Shown here in pieces: positions 7,331 through 28,717 of a stretch of DNA of 40,205 bases (its first letter is position 1; every line of letters begins with the position of its first letter). The stretch comes from Phycisphaerae bacterium (GTDB lineage Bacteria > Planctomycetota > Phycisphaerae > Phycisphaerales > SM1A02), in assembly GCA_018701395.1 (NCBI GenBank), contig JABIWU010000034.1, positions 1 through 40,205 of the forward strand, in the 5' to 3' direction. The notes below the pieces were generated by a model. It was not told the DNA's origin. It saw nothing but the letters and a program-made list of their open reading frames with translations, and searched no databases. Position numbers and translations under genes: made by a program.

Positions 7331-8746
7331 TTAACTTTGCTTCTTCACACGAGTGTAATCGAACAGTCCGGCTTCGTCGAACAGAACACGGTCTTCATAA
7401 TCGTTAAACCAGATTGCATCTGGGTTACGCCCGACGATACAAATTTTTCCACGTAGCGGGGCACCGGCAGCATTTCGCAGAAGTTTTAAAATCACCACGC
7501 CTTTTTCACTTCCTGCAAGGCCGGGTATCGGTTCATTTGTTACTGCGCTTACCTCTGTCTTGCCTAGATAATGTGTAATGGAAAGTTTTGCATGCGCCTC
7601 AACACCGGAAAGTCCTTTTTGCGATTCGTTTAAAACGCCCCATGCGGTTTCAATCGGAACGTTAAATGCACGGTGCGCAACAATGTCACGACCACAGAAG
7701 AAGTAGTGGTTCTCTGCGCCGACGCGTTTCAATGCTCGTTGCATAATTCGCAATGCATCTGCGTCGTCATTGATATCTTTGATAATTGGAGATTGGTTCT
7801 CAACACTAATCCAACCGCGTGAAACAAGGCCCTTCATCGCTTTGTCAGAGTCAGGATTCCATTTTAAAATTCCAGAGGAATCTTCAATGTAATTGCCATC
7901 CTCGTCTTTGGCGAGAAATTCATCAGGGTGATTGAAGTGCACCATGAACCGCAATCCAACTTCTGGATAGGTCTCGTGGAATTGATCGAGCATGGATAGA
8001 AATGTTTCGTCGAATCGTTGCGGAAAGAATGCCATTTCTTTTGTACCAATGCGAATGGATTCGATGCCAACTTCTGCTAACGCGCCAAGCCATGCGGCAA
8101 TTTTCGAATTGGCGAGCACCATCGGGTCACCGCCAGAAAGTAGAATTTCGCGTAACTTTTCACGACCTGTTTCAGGGTGAACGCCGCCATTACTTGCAAC
8201 GATTTCATTGTGCGAGCGAATGTACGCAGTGATTTCAGGAATCTTCGCCATTCCCTTTTTTGCGACCGTTCCATCTTGGCGTTTGATTTCCTTGCGACCA
8301 ATTAATTCCTCGCGATAACAAAAACGGCAATGCGCAGAGCATGTGGACACCACATACATAAGACCCATTTCATATTTATGCAGAAGGCCTTCGACAGGGC
8401 TGTAATCCATCTGGTTGCCTGGGTCTTCAGCGCCATCCAAGTCGTTTGTTTCGTCAGGCGTTGCTTTGACGATGTGCTGGATTGGCTTGCTGTTTTTTGC
8501 AATTTCAAAGTAGTGTTTTGTTAATTTGACAGGCATTCGCTTTTCTACATCCCTGTCGGTGTCTTTCAAAATACGCAGCGCATCAATTTCGCTTGTCGTG
8601 TAAAAGCCTTGCATTTCTTCAGGCGCTTTATTTTCAAAGAAGGGAAACAAACCATTGACATTTTCGCGTTTATAACTGGGGCTTTCGACAGTATCGAGAA
8701 ATGCCTGTTCTCTATCGGTGGTGACATGTTTTTGTTTTGTGGTCAT
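7331..8746 (-). CDS. kamA: Lysine 2,3-aminomutase family radical SAM enzyme
   Basis: A 471-residue radical SAM, PLP-dependent aminomutase. The cluster-binding cysteines are C136, C140 and C143 (CSAHCRFCYR); GGDP at 205-208 is the SAM-binding GGE-like element. NQSPIIK (317-323) and GRD (352-354) match the family, and K415 in a glycine-rich turn is the likely PLP lysine. The known family reaction is L-lysine to L-beta-lysine. Asp354 appears to match one of the two lysine-recognising aspartates of the Clostridium enzyme; the second position is not clearly conserved, because the segment before K415 reads TNEPIPGLAGSEK. Glutamate or another amino acid is therefore possible. It is first in a four-gene operon, and an RpiR regulator diverges upstream. 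Confidence 0.9.
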   Translation of the reverse strand: MTTKQKHVTTDREQAFLDTVESPSYKRENVNGLFPFFENKAPEEMQGFYTTSEIDALRILKDTDRDVEKRMPVKLTKHYFEIAKNSKPIQHIVKATPDETNDLDGAEDPGNQMDYSPVEGLLHKYEMGLMYVVSTCSAHCRFCYREELIGRKEIKRQDGTVAKKGMAKIPEITAYIRSHNEIVASNGGVHPETGREKLREILLSGGDPMVLANSKIAAWLGALAEVGIESIRIGTKEMAFFPQRFDETFLSMLDQFHETYPEVGLRFMVHFNHPDEFLAKDEDGNYIEDSSGILKWNPDSDKAMKGLVSRGWISVENQSPIIKDINDDADALRIMQRALKRVGAENHYFFCGRDIVAHRAFNVPIETAWGVLNESQKGLSGVEAHAKLSITHYLGKTEVSAVTNEPIPGLAGSEKGVVILKLLRNAAGAPLRGKICIVGRNPDAIWFNDYEDRVLFDEAGLFDYTRVKKQS

Positions 8747-8778
8747 AGTTTTCTCATCGTATTGGGTCTTTATCGCTC

Positions 8779-8807
8779 TTTATCGGCAAGGGGTGGACTT
8801 GTAACAA
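8779..8807 (-). promoter_or_regulatory. Candidate kamA promoter
   Basis: On the minus strand, -35 TTGTTA (8807-8802), a 17-bp spacer and -10 GATAAA (8784-8779), each 4/6 to consensus. The -35 overlaps a TGTAACA repeat that may be an operator. Two direct copies of TCTTTATCG (8767-8775 and 8777-8785) lie across the -10. Confidence 0.45.
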
Positions 8808-8822
8808 ACTGTACAATATAAT
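8794..8822 (+). promoter_or_regulatory. Candidate promoter for the RpiR-type regulator
   Basis: TGGACT (8794-8799), a 17-bp spacer and perfect TATAAT (8817-8822). The start point would be near 8829, leaving a leader of about 30 bases with GGAG before the TTG start. It overlaps the divergent kamA promoter. Confidence 0.55.
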
Positions 8823-8836
8823 AAAATAGTGTAACA
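8800..8836. promoter_or_regulatory. TGTAACA direct repeats: candidate operator
   Basis: TGTAACA occurs at 8800-8806, inside the regulator's promoter spacer and over the kamA -35, and again at 8830-8836, at the predicted start of the regulator transcript. The repeats are 30 bp apart, close to three helical turns, so they face the same side of DNA. Their position would let one protein control both directions. Binding by the neighbouring RpiR protein is inference. Confidence 0.35.
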
Positions 8837-8859
8837 CATAGACCATTGGAGTACCAGCA

Positions 8860-9711
8860 TTGTCCATTCAAAATCTGATTGCATCTGTAAATGAGCGTTT
8901 AACGCCAACGGAACTCCGCATTGCTGAGGCAGTACTGGACGATCCGATGTTGCTCACCTTTGGAACCGTCTCTGCCCTTGCTGAGCGAGCTGGGACGAGT
9001 CGCGCTTCTATTGTCCGATTTGCAACAAAACTTGGCTTCGAGGGGTACAGTGAATTGCAAAAAAGTGTTCGAGATGGTGTATCACAACAACTGACTAGTC
9101 CAAGCCACAGGGTTCGACACCAAGATGGTCCAACTGCGCCGATTCAGTTCGAAATCGAAAATGCGATGCACCAAGCATTTGAAGTTCTTGACGATACATG
9201 TCTGCGGGCGATGGCAGACCCAATTGTCGTTGCGCCAAATATTTGGATCCTATCGGGTGAAACTTCAATGGCTGGAGCTCACGCACTTTACAGCGGTCTT
9301 TCGATGACCCGTCCAAACGTTCGGCTAATACAAGAACACGCAACCGGACGTGAATTATGTGGAGCACTTCCCGGTGATGTTGCGGTTGTTTTTGATTTTG
9401 CTCGGTATCGTAAAAACGCAGTCATCGCAGCTCGCACGCTCTCTGATCTTGGAGTGACGATTGTTGCGATTACAGATGGACCACTTTCGCCGCTTTCGTC
9501 ACTGACAGAAATTCGCTGTGAATTAAAAATCCCAGCAGTAGGCCCTTTTGACAGTTCAGTTCCAGCAGTTATTGCAGCGGAACTTCTAGTTGCGGAGGTT
9601 GTCAGCGAACTCCGCGATGAAGCACGCAACCGAATTGACCGATTGGAAGTTTTTTGGCAAGCAACAGGAACGTTTTTAAATTACGGACCACGACCTAACA
9701 GAGATGCTTAA
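8860..9711 (+). CDS. RpiR-family transcriptional regulator (HTH + SIS domain)
   Basis: A 283-residue protein. Residues 1-75 form the RpiR helix-turn-helix domain, with LTPTELRIAEAVL at the start and the recognition region around RAGTSRASIVRFATKLG (43-59). Residues about 110-255 look like a SIS domain, the fold that binds phosphosugars in most family members. Translation starts at TTG (8860-8862) with GGAG 8 bases upstream. It is divergent from kamA, and the 113-bp gap holds overlapping promoters and repeats. It probably controls the kamA operon and itself. If so, the SIS domain may sense something other than a sugar phosphate, which would be unusual. Confidence 0.9.
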   Translation: MSIQNLIASVNERLTPTELRIAEAVLDDPMLLTFGTVSALAERAGTSRASIVRFATKLGFEGYSELQKSVRDGVSQQLTSPSHRVRHQDGPTAPIQFEIENAMHQAFEVLDDTCLRAMADPIVVAPNIWILSGETSMAGAHALYSGLSMTRPNVRLIQEHATGRELCGALPGDVAVVFDFARYRKNAVIAARTLSDLGVTIVAITDGPLSPLSSLTEIRCELKIPAVGPFDSSVPAVIAAELLVAEVVSELRDEARNRIDRLEVFWQATGTFLNYGPRPNRDA

Positions 9712-9712
9712 A

Positions 9713-9737
9713 AAGGTGCCCCATGAAGGCAGGCCTT
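9713..9737. terminator. Weak hairpin between two convergent genes
   Basis: AAGG/CCTT and GCC/GGC pair across 9713-9737 with an internal bulge. It lies in the 28-bp gap between the RpiR gene and the end of the RND operon. There is only a weak T-run, so a terminator role is tentative. Confidence 0.3.
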
Positions 9738-9739
9738 AA

Positions 9740-10210
9740 TTATTCAATCTTTCCGCGCTCTTTTTCGCCAGATGGAGTTTGTACTTCAACCCAAATAGCG
9801 CTACCAGATGGCAATTTTGCAGGTGCTTGCACATGAGCATGTGATGTAGCACCGTGGGAATGTGTTTTTGTTATTAGTGAGCCGACTCCAGATTCATCGC
9901 CTACCCAAAGTCGAATTGCAGATGCATGCCCACCTGCAGTTTGCAGAATATTAACATCAAGCATTGCATTTGGAGCAATAGTGCCTTGGATTGTTACATC
10001 AAGAGTAATGCCAGCGAGCGTTATTGTTTGTTTGTATGGCTGAGCATTATCTATTTTGAGAGTGTCCTCTTCAGGAGTTTCCACCGTAGTAGTATTTGGC
10101 GCTGGCTTTGGTGGGGTTACTGCAGTTGCATCTGTTTCATTTTTGCACCCAAAACATGCGAGGAAAATGAGAGTAGAGGTGATAGATAAAATTGTTGTGT
10201 AATTACGCAT
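9740..10210 (-). CDS. Small His-containing lipoprotein at the end of the RND efflux operon
   Basis: A 156-residue secreted protein. A hydrophobic leader ends in ACFGC, so Cys22 is the probable lipidated residue, although the lipobox is not classical. A Pro/Thr/Glu linker follows, then a beta-rich domain with a THSHGATSHAH histidine cluster (about 114-124). The start overlaps the RND gene stop by 8 bases, so it belongs to the operon. A His-rich periplasmic lipoprotein beside a metal pump suggests metal binding or delivery, comparable in position and not in sequence to CusF-type chaperones (inference). I do not recognise the family by name. Confidence 0.75.
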   Translation of the reverse strand: MRNYTTILSITSTLIFLACFGCKNETDATAVTPPKPAPNTTTVETPEEDTLKIDNAQPYKQTITLAGITLDVTIQGTIAPNAMLDVNILQTAGGHASAIRLWVGDESGVGSLITKTHSHGATSHAHVQAPAKLPSGSAIWVEVQTPSGEKERGKIE

Positions 10211-13200
10211 GGGATGCTCCTAAGTTTTTCGTCGCTGCTTTTTCAAACACAAGTGAGAATCCAGCAGGAATAACGATGAGGTTAAGTATTGTAGATGTAA
10301 GTAGTCCCCCTAGGGTGACAATTGCAAGTGGTGCGAGTAATTCGCTGCCGGGTTTCCCTGCAGCAAGCGCTAGTGGCGCAAGCCCGAGTGCTGCTGCGAG
10401 GGCGGTCATTAAAATTGGAACTAGACGCTCCATAGATCCTTGGATGATTGCTTTACGAATGGGAACATGTTCGTTTTTCATTAAATGGTTGTAGTGATTG
10501 ACAAGCAAGATACCGTTGCGAATCGAAATACCAAAAAGGGTGATAAAACCAACCATACTTGCGATTGAAATGACAGGCGCGATGTATGTTCCTCCAAAAC
10601 CAAAGAGGGCAATAGTATTTGAAACGAACCCGCCGCTTTCAGTTATGTAAATTGCAGCAATGCCACCGATAAGTGCAAGTGGCATGTTAACCATGACAAG
10701 AAGTGCAGCGCGCATTGAGCCAGTTGAAATTTGCAACAGCATAAGAATTAAAATTGCAATTGCAAACCCAGAAGCGTAAATTGTTTTTGTCGCAGACTGT
10801 TGTGCTTCAAATTGTCCACCGTAATGCACTGTGTATCCCGCTTGTTGCACAATTGGATCGACTAATAGTTTAACTTCTGCTATGAGGTCGCCAAGGTTTG
10901 AGTTTTCTGCAACATTGAGTGATACAACGGCCTTACGCTGGGCATTTTCGCGAGTAATTAAATTACTCGATCGTTCAGGTCCAATGTCGGCGACATCACG
11001 AAGTCTAATCGTCGCGCCGTTTCTGCCTCGCAATAAAAGGTCGCGAACTTGCTCGATAGTTTCGCGTTGTGACGGGTCTAGGCGTACGACTAAATTGTAT
11101 TGGCGAGTTCCTTGATTAACAGTATCAACAATTTCTCCGTACATTGCTTCTCGAACTTGTTCTGCTGCTTCAGCAGGGGTTAATCCGAAAGAGGCAAGTT
11201 CAGCGTGACGATATTGAATGGGTAATGAAGTAATCATTACTTCTCGATTTGCATTTACGTCTCTTGCGCCTTGAACCGTTGATAGCACCGTTTCTATTTG
11301 CTTCGCAATGGCTCGTAATTTATTTAAATCTTCGCCGTATACACTAATTGCAATAGCAGCAGGCGTTCCAGAAAGCAAATGGCTTAAACGATGCTCGATT
11401 GGTTGACCTACCATCGTAGTTATTCCAGGAATTGCGGCTAAAACTTTGTCAATTTTTACTCGCAGTTCTTTTTGACTAAAACCTTCCGCGATTGAGACCT
11501 CAATTTCTGAACTGCTTACTGGTTCGGCGTGTTCGTCTCTTTCTGCTCGACCTGTTCTGCGAGAAACTGAATGTACCCCTTCAATTGCACCAAGTTGAGT
11601 CTCTACATTTGTCGCCAAGCGGTTGCTCTCGACTAATGAAGTTCCCGGAGGAGCGAATAAGAAAACAGTAAATGTGCCTTCGTTAAAAGATGGCAGAAAA
11701 GACGTACCAAATGTGCTCGCTAACACCAAGGCAGCAATAGTTGCTGTTGTTGCACTTGCAATAACAATTCCTCGGAATTTAAGTGCTCCCGCAAGAGCTC
11801 GGTCGTAATAACGTTTTAACAGAACAACAAGCCATGACTCTTTGGTATGTTCTTTATCAATATTCTTACCGAGAAGGATTTTGCACAGTGCAGGAGTGAG
11901 TGTTAGTGCAACAAAAAGTGATGCAATAATTGAAATCATGTACGTTAATGCTAGTGGTTGAAAAAATTTACCTTCAAGGCCTTGCAAAAAGAGAAGTGGC
12001 ACAAAGACTAAAACAATAATGACAGTCGCAAAAACCATCGCGGGCCTAATTTCATTACTCGCTTCAAAAATTATTCCGACAAATTCTTTTCGTTGGTCAA
12101 GTGGCAATTTGTGGTTTTGTTTAAGTCGTCTAAATACATTTTCGACGTCAATAATTGCGTCATCGACAAGAACGCCAATGGCGACAGTTAGGCCACCAAG
12201 CGACATTACATTAAGACCAAGATTAAACCAACTCATCATTAGCAGTCCAATCGCAAGCGAAACTGGCAATGCGGTAAGCGTAATAATGGTTGTGCGAACA
12301 TTCATTAAAAAGAGCATTAGAATGATGGCAACGATGACAACTGCTTCAAGCAGAACGGTCGTAACATTGCTTACTGCGCGGTTAATGAAATGGGACTGCC
12401 TAAAAACTTCTCGATTTAAATGCATCCCTGAAGGCAGTGATTTTTCAATTTGGTCAAACAAAACATCAATTTGTTCGGTTAATGCAAGTGTGTTTGTTCC
12501 AGGGGATTTTTGAATTGAAATAACAACTGCAGGGGAACCGTTGTCGGATCCTTCGCCACGTTTTGAGGCTGGACCAAGAGCTACGTTTGCAACTTGTCCA
12601 ATAGTAACTGCAACTCCATCATGAAAAGAAACAATGGTATTTGCAATATCACTTGGTTTAGTGACTCGGCTTTGTTGTCGAATTGGAATTTCAAAGCTAC
12701 CTACGTTTGGCAGATAGCCAGCACTTGCGGTGGAGTGCGCATTGCCAGCTGCTTTTACAATATCAGAGATGGTCAAGTCATAAATACGCAATCGCTCTTG
12801 GTCAACATTGACTTGGTATTCAGGAAGTTCTCCGCCAATTGCAACAACTTGTGCAACGCCAGGTATAGATAAAACTTTGTTTCGTAAATCAAATTCTGCA
12901 TACGAACGAAGTTCAAGCGGGGTTGCACCTCCATCGGGAGAGGAGATTGAAACCAACATGATTTCACCTGCAATCGAAGTGATAGGCGTTATAAATGGCT
13001 CTACTTCAGCCGGCAAACTTTCGCGAACGGTAGATAGACGCTCTGCAACTAATTGGCGAGCGTTGTAAAGGTCTGCCCCCCAATCTAAATCTACCCAAAT
13101 AATAGAAAGACCGATTGCACTGGCACTTCGAACACGTCGAACACCTGTCATACCATTTACAGCAGACTCAATTGGAAATGTTACATATTGTTCAACTTCA

Positions 13201-16920: not shown

Positions 16921-18306
16921 ATGAGGGAACAGAAGACAATTGTTGATGGCGTTGAATTTGGAACTATATTTCAATTTCAAAGAATCTTCGGAGCAATTTC
17001 AAGTTCGATGCATCCAGCACGATTGTTTGTTGCGTTTGGAATGGTTCTTGTTCTATTAGCAACGGGAAGTATTTGGGATTCTATTTCAAATGTGGATGCT
17101 ACAACATTAGACGGTTCAATTATTCAAGAAGACCTTGAACAAGCAAGGGCTTTTTCCATTGCACAAGCCGCAACTTCATTAGGTCATGTCGCCCCAGAGG
17201 GTTCAGACGCTTGGTCGGTAGAAGACGCGCAAATATATTTGTTAGAGGCGTGGAAAGATTTCACTTTTGAAGGCGAAGTTACAGAAAAAGAGCGAATCGA
17301 ATTTGAACGCGTTTACCTAGAGTTAGAAAATGTTCGAGTACGCGGCCCGTTTGAAGCATCAGCAACATATGTTGCAACACATTGGAATGCCATTGTCGAT
17401 GCAGGGCTTCGTGCCGACGCAGTGAATATGTGGCAGGGCGTTGTTGCAATTGTTTGGGAACTTCCAATACTTCTTTGGAAGGGTGGATACCATTCGTTCA
17501 TAAGTTTGTATGGTTTTTTGTTGATATATGTGCTGTGCATAGGTGGAGGCGCAATTGCACGAATGCAAGTGTGCTGGCACTCACGAAATGAGCGCTTGAG
17601 TATGGGTGAAGCGCTTGATTTTGCATTATCTCGATGGAGGCAATTATTAACAGCAGTTTGTGCTCCTGTAATGTTTGTGGCGGCTATTACCATTTTCTTA
17701 CTCTTGATGGGCTTAGTTCTGCTTAGCATCCCATGGTTGAATTTTATCGGTGGATTACTTTATGGCGTTGCCTTGTTGCTTGGTTTTTTAGTTGCAATAA
17801 TTGCAGTTGCTTATGCAGCATGTTTTCCAATGTTAATTCCCTCAGTAGTAACAGAAGGGTGTGGCGGTGAAGAATCAATCCAACGCTCTTTTGCGTATTT
17901 ATTTTCAAACGTAATCCGCTATCTTGGCTATCTAATCATCCTTGTAGTTTCATTAGTGCTTGGCTATCTTGTTATTCGATTGCTTACGCATTTAACCTTG
18001 GATATTACTGCGAATTTAGTTGGCGCAGGAACATTAAATAATTCTTTAAGTGGGGCTGGAGCAGTCCAGAATAACGCAATCCCAATCATGGGTCTTGCGT
18101 GGTATGAATCAGGCACAGGCTTTTTAGTTCAGTTGTGGGAGACAATTGTCCGCGACTTAATGATCGGCTGGGTATTTAGTGGTTTCTTCAGTACGAGTGC
18201 GATGCTTTACTTACTCATGCGGAAAGCATGCGATGGACAAAACACGCGAACTATTTGGTCACGCGGAATTATTCAAGGAACAAACGTTCCAGAGGCTAAC
18301 GATTAA
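16921..18306 (+). CDS. Multi-pass inner-membrane protein, function unknown
   Basis: A 461-residue integral membrane protein I do not recognise. A first helix (about 34-52) is followed by a soluble, helical, Glu-rich region (about 60-165). Further helices lie at about 170-186, 194-214, 243-270, 273-308, 331-355 and 418-440. The architecture resembles planctomycete-type proteins of about 450 residues annotated only as membrane proteins. It contains no transporter signature, protease motif or ATP-binding site. TAGAAT (16909-16914) lies exactly 6 bases before the ATG and no ribosome-binding site is visible, so the transcript may be leaderless. It diverges from the RND efflux operon with a 227-239 bp gap; a functional link is not shown. 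Confidence 0.85.
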   Translation: MREQKTIVDGVEFGTIFQFQRIFGAISSSMHPARLFVAFGMVLVLLATGSIWDSISNVDATTLDGSIIQEDLEQARAFSIAQAATSLGHVAPEGSDAWSVEDAQIYLLEAWKDFTFEGEVTEKERIEFERVYLELENVRVRGPFEASATYVATHWNAIVDAGLRADAVNMWQGVVAIVWELPILLWKGGYHSFISLYGFLLIYVLCIGGGAIARMQVCWHSRNERLSMGEALDFALSRWRQLLTAVCAPVMFVAAITIFLLLMGLVLLSIPWLNFIGGLLYGVALLLGFLVAIIAVAYAACFPMLIPSVVTEGCGGEESIQRSFAYLFSNVIRYLGYLIILVVSLVLGYLVIRLLTHLTLDITANLVGAGTLNNSLSGAGAVQNNAIPIMGLAWYESGTGFLVQLWETIVRDLMIGWVFSGFFSTSAMLYLLMRKACDGQNTRTIWSRGIIQGTNVPEAND

Positions 18307-18311
18307 TTTAC

Positions 18312-18869
18312 TTATTGGTTTGGTTCAGGTTTGATTTCAAAAATGGATTGTGTGCGAAGCACAATGCCATGTTTGGAACAAAGGTGGTATGACTGTACAT
18401 GTAATTCTTCACTAAATCGTTGCATGTCAATAATACTTACACCTCTTACACCATCTTCATTCGCGTACTCGATGATTTTTGCTTTTGATTCTTTAGCAAA
18501 TTCAGTAAGTTCGTTATAACTATCGCCAAATAAATGTTCGGGTAGTAATTCAATTTGCATTGAATTGATAAGTGTAATTCTGTCACCGAAATCTTGTTCA
18601 TGATCACGTTCGCCTGCGCAAACAAGTGATGTCACATGTCCTCGTTCTGGCAGGTCATCAATATTTGCTGCGATTACTTCAGTTACACAAGTGCCTTCAT
18701 ATTCAAAACGAAGTACATGGGAACCCTTTAGAAGCCATGCTTCAAAGTTGTAACCGTTATGCTTAACACTGACTCGGTCTTCAATATCGAAAAATTCAGG
18801 ATGGATAGCAGCTCTAAAAAGAGCCATGCTATATGTCGGTTGTTCTACTAGTTTTTCTGGGATTTGCAT
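18312..18869 (-). CDS. DUF2617-like protein
   Basis: A 185-residue soluble protein. The order of short motifs (AAIHPEFFDI near 20-30, then LLKGSHVLRFEYEG, TEVIA, LPERGHV) resembles the DUF2617 family as I remember it from planctomycetes. No catalytic residues can be assigned. There is no signal peptide. It is convergent with the membrane-protein gene, with only 5 bp between the two stops. The start ATG at 18869 has AGGA rather far upstream. A profile search against DUF2617 would settle the name. Confidence 0.72.
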   Translation of the reverse strand: MQIPEKLVEQPTYSMALFRAAIHPEFFDIEDRVSVKHNGYNFEAWLLKGSHVLRFEYEGTCVTEVIAANIDDLPERGHVTSLVCAGERDHEQDFGDRITLINSMQIELLPEHLFGDSYNELTEFAKESKAKIIEYANEDGVRGVSIIDMQRFSEELHVQSYHLCSKHGIVLRTQSIFEIKPEPNQ

Positions 18870-20394: not shown

Positions 20395-21594
20395 TTAAAG
20401 AAGCGCCATTGAACAACTGGAAACAAGTGCAATTCCTTTTTGATCACATGCCTGGCGATAATCTATTAACTCGATTTCAGTGGGATCTACCAACTCTAAA
20501 ATGGCAGCCATGTTTCCAATACTGCACCACTGTGTCGCATTATTGTTCCATTTCATCGCTTCGATAAATTCACTCGAATCATTCTCGATGAACTTTGCCA
20601 TCATCTCACGGTCATGTCGTTCGACATCAAATTTTCGTTGGTCGTCAACTGGCCTCGGTTCGCCGAATTGTTGACCAACGTGGCTCAAGTCTGCAGAAGA
20701 GATAAACAACGTAGTACCTTCAAGGTCATGTAGTATTGTTTTTAACTCTTTAACAAATTCTTCCGTACCAGTTCGTTCACCATCATCTTCTATCATTTCG
20801 ATTAACGGGTTTGGGATTAATGCTGCAACAACAGGGACATCACCAAAACAATATTGAATCCATGGAAGATGTAATTCAATTGAATGTTCGGCAGCGTGAT
20901 CAATAAAATCAGCAGTAATAGATGTACCAAACTTGTCAGTTAATGCGGCGACTACATTTTCATCTGCAGGGCAAAAACCAAGAGGAGTTGTGAACCCAAT
21001 CGTTGAAAGTACTACGCCGTCGCCATTTCCAAAATGATTTGTTCCAAGAATGACAACTCGATCAGGTGTATCTGTTTTTGACCAAGTGTAATATGCTGAA
21101 GCGTAATTTGGCCAGCCCCGTGCGTAATCTAAGTGTGGTGCAATGACTGCCTTCACAGGATTTTCAAACTCTGGATCTTCAATTTCTGAAAACCATGCTT
21201 CGATTTGCTTTTGGCATGCTTCAGCGTTTTCGCCAAGCGAACCACTGGATCGAATAGGAAATGTTCCTTCCTCTTTTAGTTTTGCCACTGCTTCTTCTTC
21301 AAGCCGTTTTGAAGTTGGTCCCCAGAGCAATCCCACGCCGTCAAGTTTGTTAATGAGTTCAATAAATTGCTCAGGATTGGCTTTTGTTTTTTCTATAATT
21401 TCTTCAAGGGTTGACTCGCCATCTATAAATTGAAAAGCAGCAAACACGCCGGTCGGGACAACAAGCGTCTCTTTTGTCAGCATGAAGGGCTCTCGTAATG
21501 CAACAAGTTGCTTTCCTTCTTTTTGTATTGGCCATGCTTGAAATTGGCGGAGAGCAGGCATATAGAGATGTTCGGGAAGGTCCGAGAATGGCAT
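20395..21594 (-). CDS. Memo-family protein (AmmeMemoRadiSam system protein B-like) with N-terminal extension
   Basis: A 399-residue protein. Residues about 145-395 are the Memo domain: APHLDY (His154), GTNHFG (His187), HAAEHSIELHLPW (234-246), SSADLSHVG, and WCSIG containing the conserved Cys. These are the metal or dioxygenase-like site residues of the family; human MEMO1 binds copper and iron. The first 140 residues are extra and include a small helical domain resembling PqqD-type winged helices. The usual partners (AMMECR1 domain, radical SAM AmrS) are not in the window. I chose ATG 21594 because GGAG ends 6 bases upstream; a TTG 12 bases earlier is less likely. Function in bacteria is unresolved. 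Confidence 0.88.
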   Translation of the reverse strand: MPFSDLPEHLYMPALRQFQAWPIQKEGKQLVALREPFMLTKETLVVPTGVFAAFQFIDGESTLEEIIEKTKANPEQFIELINKLDGVGLLWGPTSKRLEEEAVAKLKEEGTFPIRSSGSLGENAEACQKQIEAWFSEIEDPEFENPVKAVIAPHLDYARGWPNYASAYYTWSKTDTPDRVVILGTNHFGNGDGVVLSTIGFTTPLGFCPADENVVAALTDKFGTSITADFIDHAAEHSIELHLPWIQYCFGDVPVVAALIPNPLIEMIEDDGERTGTEEFVKELKTILHDLEGTTLFISSADLSHVGQQFGEPRPVDDQRKFDVERHDREMMAKFIENDSSEFIEAMKWNNNATQWCSIGNMAAILELVDPTEIELIDYRQACDQKGIALVSSCSMALL

Positions 21595-21698
21595 TGTGGA
21601 CTCCAAGTAGTGTTTCAGGGGCGAATAAACCGTCTAAGGTAGTAGATATGACTGCAGTACGGGCAATAATATGCCAACAAACACGTTGTACCATAATC

Positions 21699-21786: not shown

Positions 21787-23583
21787 ATGAACAAACAAGT
21801 TTCAAAATATATCATTTTTATTGCTCTCGCAGCATTTTTGAGCATCAATATTGGTTGTGAGCAATCAAGCGGTGACGCAGAGGCAGCGACTACTTCAACT
21901 ACTGAAGAGGTTAAAACTAAAGCCCCATCACTTGCAACGAATAACAGTAAACCTGAGAGTAAAGTTCCAAAGAGTAAAGCCCCAGTTTTAGGCAAGGACG
22001 GAGTGGAGCAAAAGATTATTCCACTAACTGCCGACGAACTCAAAGAACTCAATAAATCACTCAAAAACAACATGACTAAAAATCCATCGGCTAACAACCA
22101 ACCGGTTGTTGGCGATTCAGCCGCGCTGTTGGAACAAGTAGTTGTAGCAACCCCAGCAGAATTATACTTGGGTGAGTTCTCAACAAGTGAAAAAGGAAGC
22201 GGTACGGTTTCACTAAAAAATACAAGTGATAAACCAGTTACTATTCTTCAAGCAAAAGCAAGTTGTGGTTGTACAACTTCCGACTTCAAAAGTGGCACTG
22301 TGCTACAGCCTGGCGAATCGACTGAAATTACAGTGACAATGAGCGGTAAAGGTCGGGCTAGAAAAATGTCAAAAACAGTGACATTTTCAATTGATGGTTA
22401 TCCATCCATCCGCTTGCCTGTGACAGCAACAACTATTTCTTACATCACATTAGATTCAGAACCAATTGTAATTAACGAAGATACTGGAACTACTATTTTA
22501 ACGTTGAAATCAGTTGACGATCAGCCGTTTAAGGTCACTTCGATTTTGCCAGCAATCGCGGAATTGCCAACCGAAGGATCATCGTCAATTGAACTCGTAT
22601 TAGATTGGGATATGTTCTGGGATATCGTGCAAACAACAAAGGTGACGATTCGAACAGATCATCCTCTTTGCACCGAAATCACGACAAATATTCGATTGAC
22701 CGCTGAACAACGCCAAAAGTTAAATAGTCTCATTTCAGAACGACGCGCTAACGGTGGTCTTCCAACTAAAGATCCAACACAGCCACTTACCGGCGATCAA
22801 CTCGCTCGATATATTAAGGGTGGTCGTGGAAATAAAGTCATTGAATATATCAATGATGACAAAGGTAAATTTAACGCCGTTAACAAAGAGGGTGTTGCTC
22901 TATTAAGCGTTGCCGCGGAAAGTGGTGATGAAGAAACAACAGCAGCATTGCTTGCTTTAGGCGCACAAATAGAACGCGTTGACGGTATTAATCGGACACC
23001 GTTGATGCACGCCGCTCGCTCTAAAAACCCAGCAACAATTTTATTGTTGCTTGATTCTGGTGCAGATATCCAAGCGCGCGATCGGCTCGGTGGCACACCT
23101 CTTTCATGGGCATCAGGGTTTGGTTCACCAGATGGCGTACAAGCGCTGATTGATGCTGGTGCTGATGCAAACACTGTTGATCTAGTTCTTGGATATACAC
23201 CCCTGCTTTGGGCAGCAGGTTTTGGCGACTCTAAATCAGTTGCGATTCTTCTTGAAGCAGATGCTGATGTAAATGTTGTTGATATTGCTGAAAAGCGTTC
23301 GCCATTAATGCATGCTGTTCGAACGGGTAAAGCAGATAGTGTGAAATTTCTGCTTGAAGCCGGTGCAAATATAAAAGAAATTGATAAAAATCATTCAACT
23401 TCATTACACATTGCAACAGAAAGCAATAATGTTTCGCTTGTAAAAATCGTACTGCTTGTAGAAGCAGGTGCTGATGTCAGCGCTAAAGATGCTAGTGGGG
23501 CAACACCACTTGATTTAGCGAAAAGTCGCACAGACGACGGGGCAGCGGAAGTGGTCGCTTATCTCCGTGAGCAGTTGAAGTAA
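21787..23583 (+). CDS. Lipoprotein with DUF1573 (Hydin-like) and ankyrin repeat domains
   Basis: A 598-residue exported protein. The lipobox INIGC gives lipidated Cys24. Residues 25-110 are a Ser/Thr/Lys-rich linker. Residues about 122-215 form a DUF1573/ASH-type immunoglobulin-like domain with the typical SCGC turn (159-162) and LQPGES. A second beta domain follows (about 218-305). Residues about 336-598 are seven ankyrin repeats (GxTPLLWAA-type units every 33-34 residues). I chose ATG 21787, preceded by GGAAG at 7 bases; an upstream in-frame start lacks this. The protein probably sits on the periplasmic face of a membrane as a binding scaffold. I do not recall DUF1573 and ankyrin joined in one lipoprotein as a named family. 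Confidence 0.88.
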   Translation: MNKQVSKYIIFIALAAFLSINIGCEQSSGDAEAATTSTTEEVKTKAPSLATNNSKPESKVPKSKAPVLGKDGVEQKIIPLTADELKELNKSLKNNMTKNPSANNQPVVGDSAALLEQVVVATPAELYLGEFSTSEKGSGTVSLKNTSDKPVTILQAKASCGCTTSDFKSGTVLQPGESTEITVTMSGKGRARKMSKTVTFSIDGYPSIRLPVTATTISYITLDSEPIVINEDTGTTILTLKSVDDQPFKVTSILPAIAELPTEGSSSIELVLDWDMFWDIVQTTKVTIRTDHPLCTEITTNIRLTAEQRQKLNSLISERRANGGLPTKDPTQPLTGDQLARYIKGGRGNKVIEYINDDKGKFNAVNKEGVALLSVAAESGDEETTAALLALGAQIERVDGINRTPLMHAARSKNPATILLLLDSGADIQARDRLGGTPLSWASGFGSPDGVQALIDAGADANTVDLVLGYTPLLWAAGFGDSKSVAILLEADADVNVVDIAEKRSPLMHAVRTGKADSVKFLLEAGANIKEIDKNHSTSLHIATESNNVSLVKIVLLVEAGADVSAKDASGATPLDLAKSRTDDGAAEVVAYLREQLK

Positions 23584-23610
23584 AACACGATAACATTTAA
23601 TTGATTTCAT

Positions 23611-23638
23611 CAGCGAACCGCCATTTGGCGGTTCGCTG
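23611..23638. terminator. Long perfect hairpin after the ankyrin gene
   Basis: A 12-bp perfect stem (23611-23622 with 23627-23638) with an ATTT loop. The T-run after it is weak, so termination may be partial or assisted. Confidence 0.7.
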
Positions 23639-23674
23639 TCGTTATGATGTACATTCAAATTAAGGAATATATTT

Positions 23675-25207
23675 ATGACAACTATCGCAACCTCAACTGA
23701 ATACGATCAACTCATTAAGAAAACCAAAGATGCAAACGCACTTGGCGCAACAATTTCACTCTTGGGTTGGGACCAAGAAGTCATGATGCCAAAGCGTGGC
23801 ATTGAGTTTCGAGCGGACCAAATTACACTCACTTCAAAAATGCACCATGAATTAGTTACTGATCAGAAGATTTCTGATCTTTTGGAAGCATGCGAAGCGG
23901 ATAGCGATTTGATAAGCAATTCAACGAGTGTTACTGCGACAAACATTCGCGAAATTCGACATGGTTACGACCGTGCAACGAAATTGCCAACGGAACTCGT
24001 AGAAGAAGAAGCGATGCTTTCAAGTAAAGGTCAGAATGCTTGGGCCCAAGCTCGCAAAAACAATGACTTTAAGGCATTTCAGCCATGGCTCGAAAAAATT
24101 GTTTCACTATTGCAACGAAAAGCAGAATGTTATGGTTGGGCAGAAGGCGGAGAGCCATGGGATGCACTTGCAGAAGATTATGAACCTGGATGTACTGCTG
24201 CGGCAGTGAGTAAAGTGTTCACGCCGCTTCGCAAGCGTCTACAAACATTGCTCAATGAAATAATGGGCAGTTCAACAAAACCAAGTAATGCATTTAATGA
24301 AATTGCATTACCAATCGATCAGCAACAAGCATTTGTTCGTTCAATTGCAACACAAATTGGTTTCGATTTTGAAGCCGGCCGTCTCGATGAATCAACACAT
24401 CCATTTTGCAGTGGAACGCACTGCTTTGATGTTCGATTGACAACTCGATTTCACGAAAATAATGTTAATGATGCAATCGGCTCGACCATGCACGAAGCAG
24501 GACACGGAATTTATGAACAAGGTTTATTGTTCGATCACATAGGTACTCCTATGGGGCACGCAGTTTCGCTTGGTATACATGAATCGCAAAGCAGAATGTG
24601 GGAAAATCAAGTTGGACGCAGTGAAGCATTTTGGAAATGGTGTTACCCGAAAATGGGTGAATTTTTTGGAGAAGCAACGTCGTCTCTTTCATTTGACGAT
24701 GTGTATGGTGGCGCAAACCTTGTACGTCCAGATTTCATTCGAGTCGAAGCAGATGAAGCAACATACAACATGCACATTATGATTCGATTCGAACTTGAAC
24801 GAATGTTGATGAAGGGGGAACTTGCAGTTGCAGATCTTCCTGAAGCGTGGAATTCCAAATACCAAGAATATCTTGGCATAGATGTGCCAAGCGATACAAA
24901 AGGATGTCTACAAGACATTCACTGGTCGATGACTGCAATGGGTTACTTTCCAACATATACACTTGGCAATTTGTATTGTGCCCAATTCTTTGAAACAGCA
25001 TTGGTGGCGATTCCAGACATGTATGAACAGTTTGCTCGCGGCGAATTTGGCAGTTTGAAAACTTGGCTTAATGAAAATATTCACTGCAACGGTAGGCGAT
25101 ATCGAGCTGCAGATTTATGCGAAAAAGTAACAGGCAAACCACTATCATCCGACCCACTCATGCGACATTTAGAAAATAAGTTAAAACCACTTTACGGTCT
25201 TGCTTGA
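23675..25207 (+). CDS. M32 family metallocarboxypeptidase (carboxypeptidase Taq)
   Basis: A 510-residue cytoplasmic zinc carboxypeptidase that removes C-terminal residues with broad specificity. The zinc site HEAGH (273-277) and the third ligand in GIHESQSRMWE (Glu303) are intact. Family features DQEVMMP (33-39) and DVRLTTRF are also seen. Length is normal. AAGGA precedes the ATG by 8 bases. Its last 16 bases overlap the end of anmK on the other strand, so the two genes are convergent with overlapping 3' ends. Confidence 0.95.
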   Translation: MTTIATSTEYDQLIKKTKDANALGATISLLGWDQEVMMPKRGIEFRADQITLTSKMHHELVTDQKISDLLEACEADSDLISNSTSVTATNIREIRHGYDRATKLPTELVEEEAMLSSKGQNAWAQARKNNDFKAFQPWLEKIVSLLQRKAECYGWAEGGEPWDALAEDYEPGCTAAAVSKVFTPLRKRLQTLLNEIMGSSTKPSNAFNEIALPIDQQQAFVRSIATQIGFDFEAGRLDESTHPFCSGTHCFDVRLTTRFHENNVNDAIGSTMHEAGHGIYEQGLLFDHIGTPMGHAVSLGIHESQSRMWENQVGRSEAFWKWCYPKMGEFFGEATSSLSFDDVYGGANLVRPDFIRVEADEATYNMHIMIRFELERMLMKGELAVADLPEAWNSKYQEYLGIDVPSDTKGCLQDIHWSMTAMGYFPTYTLGNLYCAQFFETALVAIPDMYEQFARGEFGSLKTWLNENIHCNGRRYRAADLCEKVTGKPLSSDPLMRHLENKLKPLYGLA

Positions 25208-27334: not shown

Positions 27335-27364
27335 TACCGAATAACTACCGAACAACGCTTGACA
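27335..27364 (+). promoter_or_regulatory. Tandem 11-bp repeats next to a TTGACA box upstream of recA
   Basis: TACCGAATAAC (27335-27345) is followed at once by TACCGAACAAC (27346-27356), then a perfect -35 TTGACA at 27359-27364. The -10 at correct spacing is poor (ATCCTA around 27382), which would suit an activated promoter. The repeats could be the damage-response site for recA; they do not match the E. coli LexA box. Confidence 0.45.
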
Positions 27365-27430
27365 TCGCCGATGTTTATGTCATCCTACCGTAAACCTAAC
27401 AAACACGGTACTAAAGGAGCATTGGCTGAA

Positions 27431-28717
27431 ATGGCATTATTAAGCAGAAACGGGAAAAAATCGAAATCACTACGAAAAACAGCAACTTCATCAGAAACTC
27501 CCGCAAAGGGCGGTATCGTACAAAGCGGTAGAACAACAGATTCAACTAATATAAATAGCGCAGGAAGCACTGCGACTGAACCACGGAAGGCGAAGAATTC
27601 AATGGCTTTTAAAACAGCAACAAAAAAGAAAACTAAGGCACCAATTAAGGCAAAAGTAACAATCGAAGATAAGGGAAAAGTACAAGCACTTGAAAATGCG
27701 TTATCTCAAATAGATAAAACATTTGGCTCTGGTGCAATTATGCGGCTTAATGGCGATAACATCTCAGTTATTCCTGCGATCTCGACTGGGGCAATTAGTT
27801 TGGACTTGGCGCTGGGCGGGCGAGGCATGCCTCGTGGTCGAATCATCGAAGTCTTCGGACCAGAATCATCAGGCAAGACAACGCTTGCACTGAATGTAGT
27901 AGCGCAAGCCCAAAAGGGTGGCATCGCTGCATTCATTGATGCAGAGCACGCGCTTGATCCTACATGGGCAAAGAAACTCGGTGTTGATATTGATGCGCTT
28001 CTTGTTTCACAACCAGACACAGGTGAGCAGGCATTGGAAATTTGCGAAATGCTCGTTCGCTCCAACGCTGTGGATGTAGTCGTAATTGACTCCGTCGCGG
28101 CATTAATACCGCGTGCTGAAATTGAAGGCGAAATGGGCGACACGCATGTTGGCTTGCAAGCTCGATTAATGAGTCAAGCAATGCGGAAACTAACTGGTGC
28201 GATTTCAAAGAGCGATTGTATGGTTATTTTCATAAATCAAATTCGTGAGAAAATTGGTGTGATGTTTGGCAGTCCAGAAACAACACCTGGCGGTCGCGCT
28301 CTCAAGTTTTATTCTTCGATCCGAGTGGATATCCGTCGTATTGGCTCAATTAAAGATGGCGACACCGTAATTGGTAACCGAGTCCGAACTCGCGTCGTGA
28401 AAAACAAGACTGCACCACCGTTCCGCACTGCTGAATTTGACATTATGTTCAACGAAGGAATTAGTATCACAGGCGATTTGTTAGATCTCGCGGTTGAAGA
28501 TGGCATTATAGACAAGAGCGGTTCATGGTTTAGTTATGGTGAAACTCGTCTCGGTCAAGGTCGCGAAAATTCAAAGCTATTCATTGCTGAGAATTCTGAA
28601 ATGTATGAAGAAATCAAACAGAAGGTCCTCGTTGCCCGCGGTGTCGCCGATACCACTGCTAAGAGTGTTGAAACCAAGACAGCAGTAAAAGCTGAACCTA
28701 AGGACGATTCTAAGTAA
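27431..28717 (+). CDS. recA: Recombinase RecA with a basic N-terminal extension
   Basis: RecA forms filaments on single-stranded DNA, drives strand exchange and triggers the SOS response. The core is intact: Walker A GPESSGKT (143-150 of 428), [17 protein letters not shown], and [14 protein letters not shown]; loop L2 ([13 protein letters not shown]) follows. From ATG 27431 the protein has about 77 extra residues before the normal core, rich in Lys, Ser and Thr. The start is chosen for AAAGGAG 11 bases upstream. A second candidate is ATG 27602, which would leave an extension of about 20 residues. The C-terminal tail is Lys/Glu/Asp rich. A terminator follows at 28745-28774. Confidence 0.95.

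Follow-up and report, generated by a model that had tools for sequence, protein, structure and literature searches.

Selenocysteine (Sec) usually marks redox sites. The domain DUF1573 (PF07610) is entered as a selenoprotein family, with the motif UGC, in tables of two reviews (PMC9312934, PMC13188914). DUF1573 and OS_HP2 (NF041425) share with the protein described here its first Ig-like domain, in which a two-cysteine motif corresponds to the UGC of those tables; OS_HP2 selenoprotein members carry Sec, whereas the family described here carries Cys. As regards ankyrin repeats, AnkB of Pseudomonas aeruginosa and Cj1386 of Campylobacter jejuni, neither of which is known to have an Ig/CGC part, are ankyrin proteins that serve the physiology of the bacterium itself. 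AnkB is called periplasmic in a title cited by PMC7567364 and is exported, as is the protein described here; the first-pass annotation, which regarded ankyrin repeats as usually intracellular or found in effectors, was incomplete in this respect. That annotation also held that no function is known for the combination of DUF1573 and ankyrin repeats. The literature searched (DUF1573; ankyrins of Planctomycetes and Phycisphaerae; most subscription journals lay outside the search) yielded no description of the fusion, whose parts are nevertheless of known kinds, and the lead given by the selenoprotein UGC motif of DUF1573 had been missed.

The window, by which we mean the whole analysed stretch of 40,205 nucleotides from a Phycisphaerae bacterium, carries the gene for this protein on its forward strand:

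21787..23583, plus strand: ankyrin-protein gene, ATG start, 598 amino acids; two Ig-like domains and an ankyrin array, exported
21787..21858, plus strand: signal peptide ending in the atypical lipobox SINIGC, Cys24 codon at 21856-21858 (sequence)
21859..22137, plus strand: low-complexity N-terminal linker, poorly conserved (column entropy, pairwise identity)
22138..22431, plus strand: first Ig-like domain, DUF1573, residues ~118-215 (Pfam, models, Foldseek)
22264..22275, plus strand: motif C160-G161-C162-T163, invariant in 59 of 59 family proteins
22432..22701, plus strand: second Ig-like domain, residues ~216-305, without a Pfam name (models, alignment)
22702..22791, plus strand: variable linker, helical at its start (alignment, model)
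22792..23568, plus strand: ankyrin array, seven canonical repeats behind a capping pair of helices (Pfam, model, VIA)
23107..23124, plus strand: groove of repeat 4, W441 (59 of 59) followed by G444-F445-G446 (alignment of 59)
23209..23226, plus strand: groove of repeat 5, W475 (58 of 59) followed by G478-F479-G480 (alignment of 59)
23527..23529, plus strand: R581 in the last repeat, 58 of 58 among the proteins that have a residue at this position

Pfam places DUF1573 at residues 126-203 of the 598-residue frame (E 2.1e-14; 53.8 bits, above the cut-off of 26.1), overlapped by a HYDIN-like Ig model at residues 125-212 (40 bits, cut-off 25.5), and Ank_2 matches with 117.5 bits against a cut-off of 27.3. 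An AlphaFold2 model of residues 100-598, built from an alignment of three sequences (mean pLDDT 83.3), resolves into a pair of beta domains followed by a helical linker and then by eight helix pairs, in an arrangement that is uncertain at a pTM of 0.55. We read the helix pairs as an N-terminal capping pair (336-356) and seven canonical TPLH-type repeats (~366-593) in the model, so that the seven repeats originally counted hold as canonical repeats preceded by a cap. The fusion of a DUF1573/Hydin-type domain to ankyrins behind an export signal is likewise borne out, by Pfam, by the structure model and by 59 relatives, with the amendment, from the models and PDB matches, that the single domain first described is really two Ig-like domains in tandem. 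Compared with a 92% identical relative, dN/dS is 0.23 overall, 0.18 in the Ig pair and 0.24 in the ankyrins; against the relatives L005 and L006, synonymous changes come close to saturation or exceed it. With this dN/dS and with the same architecture recurring in 59 distinct proteins, the arrangement is more than chance.

A profile of the two Ig-like domains matches, at <=1e-25, 145 of 151 genomes of the window's family, including 96 of 98 good family genomes and 44 of 45 genera; the window genome itself is of 1.94 Mb and 97.7% complete. By our own row count, 140 family genomes match at <=2e-57, and second matches within a genome, mostly to shorter frames, start at 2.7e-54, a tandem copy in genome G102 excepted; one paralogue that was checked (L125) has no ankyrins. 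A count of matches of any kind, ankyrin-only ones among them, gives 148 of 151 family genomes and is no measure of architecture. That measure comes from 59 distinct full-length proteins, the window's included, which remained once a paralogue (L002), an incomplete frame (L018) and duplicates with the same last 200 residues had been left out: both parts and an export signal are present in all 59. These include both tandem copies from G102, whose locus L062 carries ankyrin genes at 7599-9281 and 9523-11262 (minus strand), each with the full architecture. Much diverged is the family member G009, which has fewer repeats. One genome has further DUF1573-like proteins: a second, ankyrin-free one, whose 393-residue frame opens with a lipobox-like stretch and contains the motif AGCGCTT (L002 1201-2379; also in L140, frame from 3194), and a third, short one with PSCGCTT (L003 1330-2076).

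Beyond the family, the Ig profile matches 83 of 198 genomes of a class sample at 1e-10 (11 of the 83 from the window's family) and 29 of 294 genomes of a phylum sample at 1e-15 (two from the family). Unlike the window family, DUF1573 relatives outside it are without ankyrins in all 35 loci fetched from the two samples, and among the matches listed for the whole-protein query in the class sample no outside-family row spans both parts; these samples leave room for a rare DUF1573-ankyrin fusion outside the family. The domain-architecture search proposed at the outset has thus placed the fusion in every one of the 59 family proteins and the ankyrins in none of the 35 outside relatives inspected.

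All 59 proteins begin with an export signal, as judged from a hydrophobicity script whose output was also read by eye, and the signals comprise 23 usual lipoboxes, four atypical ones (the window, L004, L069 and L057) and 32 that resemble signal-peptidase-I sites; the total of 27 lipoboxes derives from 24 flagged by the script, less L048, moved by eye to the signal-peptidase-I group, plus the four atypical cases. The lipobox consensus is [LVI][ASTVI][GAS]C after the signal peptide. Set against it, SINIGC fits with Gly at -1 and Ile at -2 and departs from it with Asn at -3. Among the genus relatives read, this Asn recurs in the 92% identical one; in eight the lipobox is of the usual type, and L013 carries a signal-peptidase-I-type signal in its place. 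Export of the window protein is well supported, and with it the earlier expectation that the ankyrins face the periplasm or the outside; lipidation of this copy, which the first-pass annotation took as given, is likely but not certain. As both kinds of signal occur, even within the window's genus, it is export from the cytoplasm, and not the lipid, that seems to be constrained. The linker that follows is poorly conserved, with only 29-30% identity to L005 and L006 over residues 25-110 and a mean column entropy of 3.23 bits over residues 105-117.

What, then, can be said of the function of the first Ig-like domain? DUF1573 is matched at E <= 0.01 in 16 of 16 aligned family members, and the OS_HP2 (seleno)protein model matches 21 of 21 aligned domains at E <= 0.01, the window protein scoring 29.5 bits as a whole and 32.6 bits for the domain, below that model's cut-off of 100. 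The first position of the two-cysteine motif is encoded in the window by a TGT codon (22264-22266) and is Cys, not Sec, in 59 of 59 proteins; in the structure model C160 sits in a loop and C162 at the start of a strand. Outside the family, a CxC lies inside the domain match in 34 of the 35 relatives inspected (L105 alone is without one), mostly as CGCT and also as CKCT, CGCS, CSCT, CACT, CPCV and others, the middle residue varying among G, K, S, A and P, while G009, within the family, has CNCT. From about residue 105 onward the 59 proteins hold two to nine cysteines, and in ten of them exactly the CGC pair; ahead of that point these ten have, by reading, Cys solely in the lipobox, in the signal or before the signal. 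Because these ten proteins thus have only the CGC pair in the mature chain, the lipobox Cys aside, no third or distant Cys partner is needed.

Because DUF1573 is tabulated as a selenoprotein family with UGC, we regard the Cys-Gly-Cys motif as probably redox-active. A CGC peptide has served as a mimic of disulfide isomerase, with an E0' of -167 mV, as cited in PMC4316792, and a DsbD-type membrane protein (DsbD_TM) was found in all 16 genomes searched, among them that of the window. Several observations tell against a redox role. First, a CxC motif can also bind metal. Second, the chromosomal neighbours (M32, Memo, DTD, UDG and AnmK) point to no redox pathway. Third, L105 is without CxC, G009 has CNCT, and no Sec form was seen: the matches listed in the family, class and phylum profile searches contain no internal stop. 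Stops were met in other searches, as a TGA in the ankyrin part of one row (G037) and in a few ankyrin-only rows of the whole-protein search of the class sample.

The second Ig-like domain is conserved at D244, F248 and P255 (each 59 of 59), W274 (56 of 59) and H292 (56 of 59). Modelled alone, the Ig pair has a mean pLDDT of 85.8, and its best PDB matches by Foldseek are Hydin-type central-pair chains, CEP192, PapD-type chaperones and 2qsv, an uncharacterised Porphyromonas gingivalis protein with a fold like that of the N-terminal domains here (Foldseek, profile search). Human HYDIN (2e6j) superposes on one Ig domain with an rmsd of 2.0 over 106 columns; the two-domain matches to Hydin, SPD-2 (ASH) and PapD types are loose, TM by query being <=0.5 in nearly all rows, and the roles of those proteins are eukaryotic-cytoskeletal or pilus-chaperone ones, unlike that of a bacterial exported ankyrin fusion. 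Judged by title, none of the 50 listed PDB matches of the Ig pair is a CGC-ankyrin fusion. That these matches are mostly scaffold or chaperone proteins, that the solved ankyrin arrays among the matches listed are mostly binding modules and that anchoring differs among relatives (lipid or soluble) would all suit a non-catalytic periplasmic scaffold or surface adaptor, with an Ig stalk, a CGC pair forming a local structural disulfide and ankyrins that bind an envelope protein. It would be unusual for a structural disulfide to be formed by a CxC pair, which counts against such a scaffold. The UGC forms given for DUF1573 in the tables of the two reviews also argue for chemistry (PMC9312934, PMC13188914), and we consider the scaffold possible but rather unlikely.

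The first Foldseek search and VIA-align with the whole model listed only ankyrin folds, and the Ig part was barely tested there. For the array itself, VIA-align finds ankyrin-1, designed proteins and EHMT1 as nearest folds, near-tied at Z 28.3-29.6. In designed ankyrin proteins, positions 13 and 14, counted from TPLH, belong to the set varied for binding, and position 10 adjoins them. In repeats 4 to 6 of the family these three positions are mostly W,G,F, W,G,F and H,R,T, with a mean entropy of 1.06 bits, against 2.41 bits in repeats 2, 3, 7 and 8; label permutation gives p 0.0005 for the difference, a value that is descriptive only, the positions and repeats having been chosen after the alignment was seen. 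Conservation of the groove, which had been suggested for inspection together with the predicted structure, is thus evident at W441 (59 of 59) and W475 (58 of 59) and at the positions beside them. These tryptophans are reminiscent of the methyl-lysine readers EHMT1 and G9a, which also have Trp residues in their middle repeats (EHMT1, 6by9: VIA Z 28.3 over 260 residues, rmsd 2.8) at what we assume to be equivalent positions. In G9a, according to PMC9329655, three Trp and one Glu form a pocket at repeats 4-5. No counterpart of that Glu was seen in the array here, and EHMT1/G9a is a nuclear eukaryotic reader whereas the protein here is exported and bacterial. By analogy, an aromatic pocket in the ankyrin groove is a lead; the likeness to G9a is no evidence of methyl-lysine binding.

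On these features, the protein is best explained as an exported one, periplasmic or on the outer surface, whose gene keeps a single position in the chromosome throughout one family of Phycisphaerales. Its CGC pair may be a thiol-disulfide site that alternates between the dithiol form and a strained disulfide within CxC, the ankyrin groove may bind one particular, conserved partner or client beside that site, and DsbD, encoded in these genomes, could be the source of electrons. Overall, the protein would be a docking thiol-disulfide factor (a reductase, an isomerase or a redox-switched chaperone) with an Ig and not a thioredoxin fold. We put this forward tentatively: as read from sequence, a periplasmic docking thiol-disulfide factor with its partner on the ankyrins has somewhat less than an even chance of being correct. 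Thioredoxin-fold oxidoreductases pair that fold with CxxC, and here Ig-like beta domains are found with CxC. A bolder proposal is that the whole family represents a new class of periplasmic thiol-disulfide enzyme, with CGC catalysis on a Hydin-type Ig domain and ankyrins that choose the substrate; on the same sequence features we regard this as doubtful.

The capacity of CxC to bind metal, together with the conserved H292 and with C295 (Cys in 31 of 59 proteins), raises the prospect of a metal or heme chaperone, with CxC and H292 binding metal or heme and the ankyrins docking the receiving enzyme. The models for such a role are AnkB and Cj1386, which are needed for catalase activity, probably via heme binding, according to PMC7567364. 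AnkB and Cj1386 serve catalase, whereas neither catalase (PF00199) nor catalase-peroxidase (PF00141) is matched in ten of ten genomes of the window's genus, the window's included, so the catalase version of this explanation fails there and a catalase-partner role is disfavoured for the genus. Each of the two models matches two of 16 genomes searched, all from other families of the order. As no metal or heme gene was found by Pfam among the nine neighbours scanned either, we think a metal or heme chaperone unlikely.

Ankyrin repeats are frequent in bacterial effectors, and there are weak matches to Dot/Icm Ank models, which could suggest a secreted effector acting on eukaryotic hosts or prey. 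These matches are confined to the ankyrin repeats and far below the NCBIfam cut-off (best 85.5 against 600 bits). The gene is moreover the sole ankyrin gene found in the window genome (a search for Ank_2 at 0.01 gave three matches, all within 21787-23583), its export signal is ordinary and its chromosomal neighbours are kept across the family. A host effector is disfavoured by the synteny, the lone ankyrin gene and the low scores, and we consider it highly improbable. Among the anti-phage defence models of PADLOC, two (PDC-M72A and Ankyrin) match the protein, in its ankyrin part only; the neighbours named by Pfam are housekeeping genes.

The synteny involves three further features of the window:

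23675..25207, plus strand: M32 carboxypeptidase, downstream neighbour (Pfam, 587.7 bits)
20395..21606, minus strand: Memo-like protein, divergent neighbour (Pfam, 125.6 bits)
23611..23638, plus strand: hairpin between the ankyrin and M32 genes, with a perfect 12-bp stem and a loop of 4 bases (RNA fold)

Across 41 loci (the window and 40 others, contig ends being counted as misses), an M32 gene lies directly downstream on the same strand in 36 and somewhere in 38, a Memo-like gene is present in 35 and is adjacent and divergent in 27, and DTD and UDG are found in 29 and 32 respectively. M32 or Memo occurs in 40 of the 41 and both in 33; the one locus with neither, L054, still has UDG along with two further conserved neighbours. 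M32, Memo and UDG all occur in five of six further loci, four of which also have DTD, and in the sixth, G009, Memo, DTD and UDG lie beside the ankyrin gene with M32 about 0.93 Mb away. With neighbours kept in 40 of 41 loci and in the six further ones, recent horizontal acquisition is not supported, and we read the gene as a fixed chromosomal gene passed down within the family. Two of the six genomes without an Ig-profile match, G124 and G086, are also without M32; as the ankyrin and M32 genes mostly lie side by side, one gap in the assembly might account for both absences.

Is the ankyrin protein, then, a working partner of the adjoining M32 carboxypeptidase or Memo-like protein? The position of M32 directly downstream would favour this, as would the agreement between the distance matrices of the two proteins (Spearman 0.49, 0 of 499 permutations as high). 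Corresponding values are 0.25 for DTD (0 of 499), 0.23 for UDG (1 of 499) and 0.15 for Memo (14 of 499), and in an untrimmed run 0.44 for M32 (0 of 999) and 0.09 for Memo (120 of 999); we attribute the low values to rapid evolution of the ankyrin protein and saturated distances, but they are a weak point in the case against recent horizontal acquisition. Shared descent would by itself lead to such agreement, and M32 shows a closer one with Memo (0.60) and with DTD (0.60). Neither the M32 nor the Memo-like protein of the window has an export signal by reading, so both should be cytoplasmic, and in G009 the ankyrin gene has stayed beside Memo, DTD and UDG with M32 far away. The hairpin also separates the ankyrin and M32 genes in the window: the RNA fold of 23584-23674 has a z of -5.78, with 0 of 200 shuffles as stable, and the hairpin, which is without a T-run and was not listed by the promoter/terminator scan, is possibly a terminator. 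We see very little likelihood of such a partnership.

Throughout its family the protein is conserved, with its gene at the same position in the chromosome, and it is not an isolated oddity. If the docking thiol-disulfide reading is true, DUF1573, found in many of the genomes searched, gains a testable chemistry in CxC redox, and a partner of the DUF1573 system could be fished out via the ankyrin groove. A caution also follows: ankyrin genes should not be counted as signs of host association, since the only ankyrin gene found in this genome has a fixed position and encodes an exported protein that is conserved in a family sampled across 45 genera.

Other frames in this neighbourhood deserve mention. 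Two without a Pfam match at 0.001, 18315-18869 (minus strand) and 16921-18303 (plus strand), have counterparts close to the ankyrin gene in 26 and 11, respectively, of the 41 loci. The Memo-like protein (20395-21606) has about 120 residues ahead of its Pfam Memo domain. Similarly, the RecA frame at 27359-28714 has about 100 residues ahead of the RecA domain, which Pfam places from residue 109, and its true start may lie further in.
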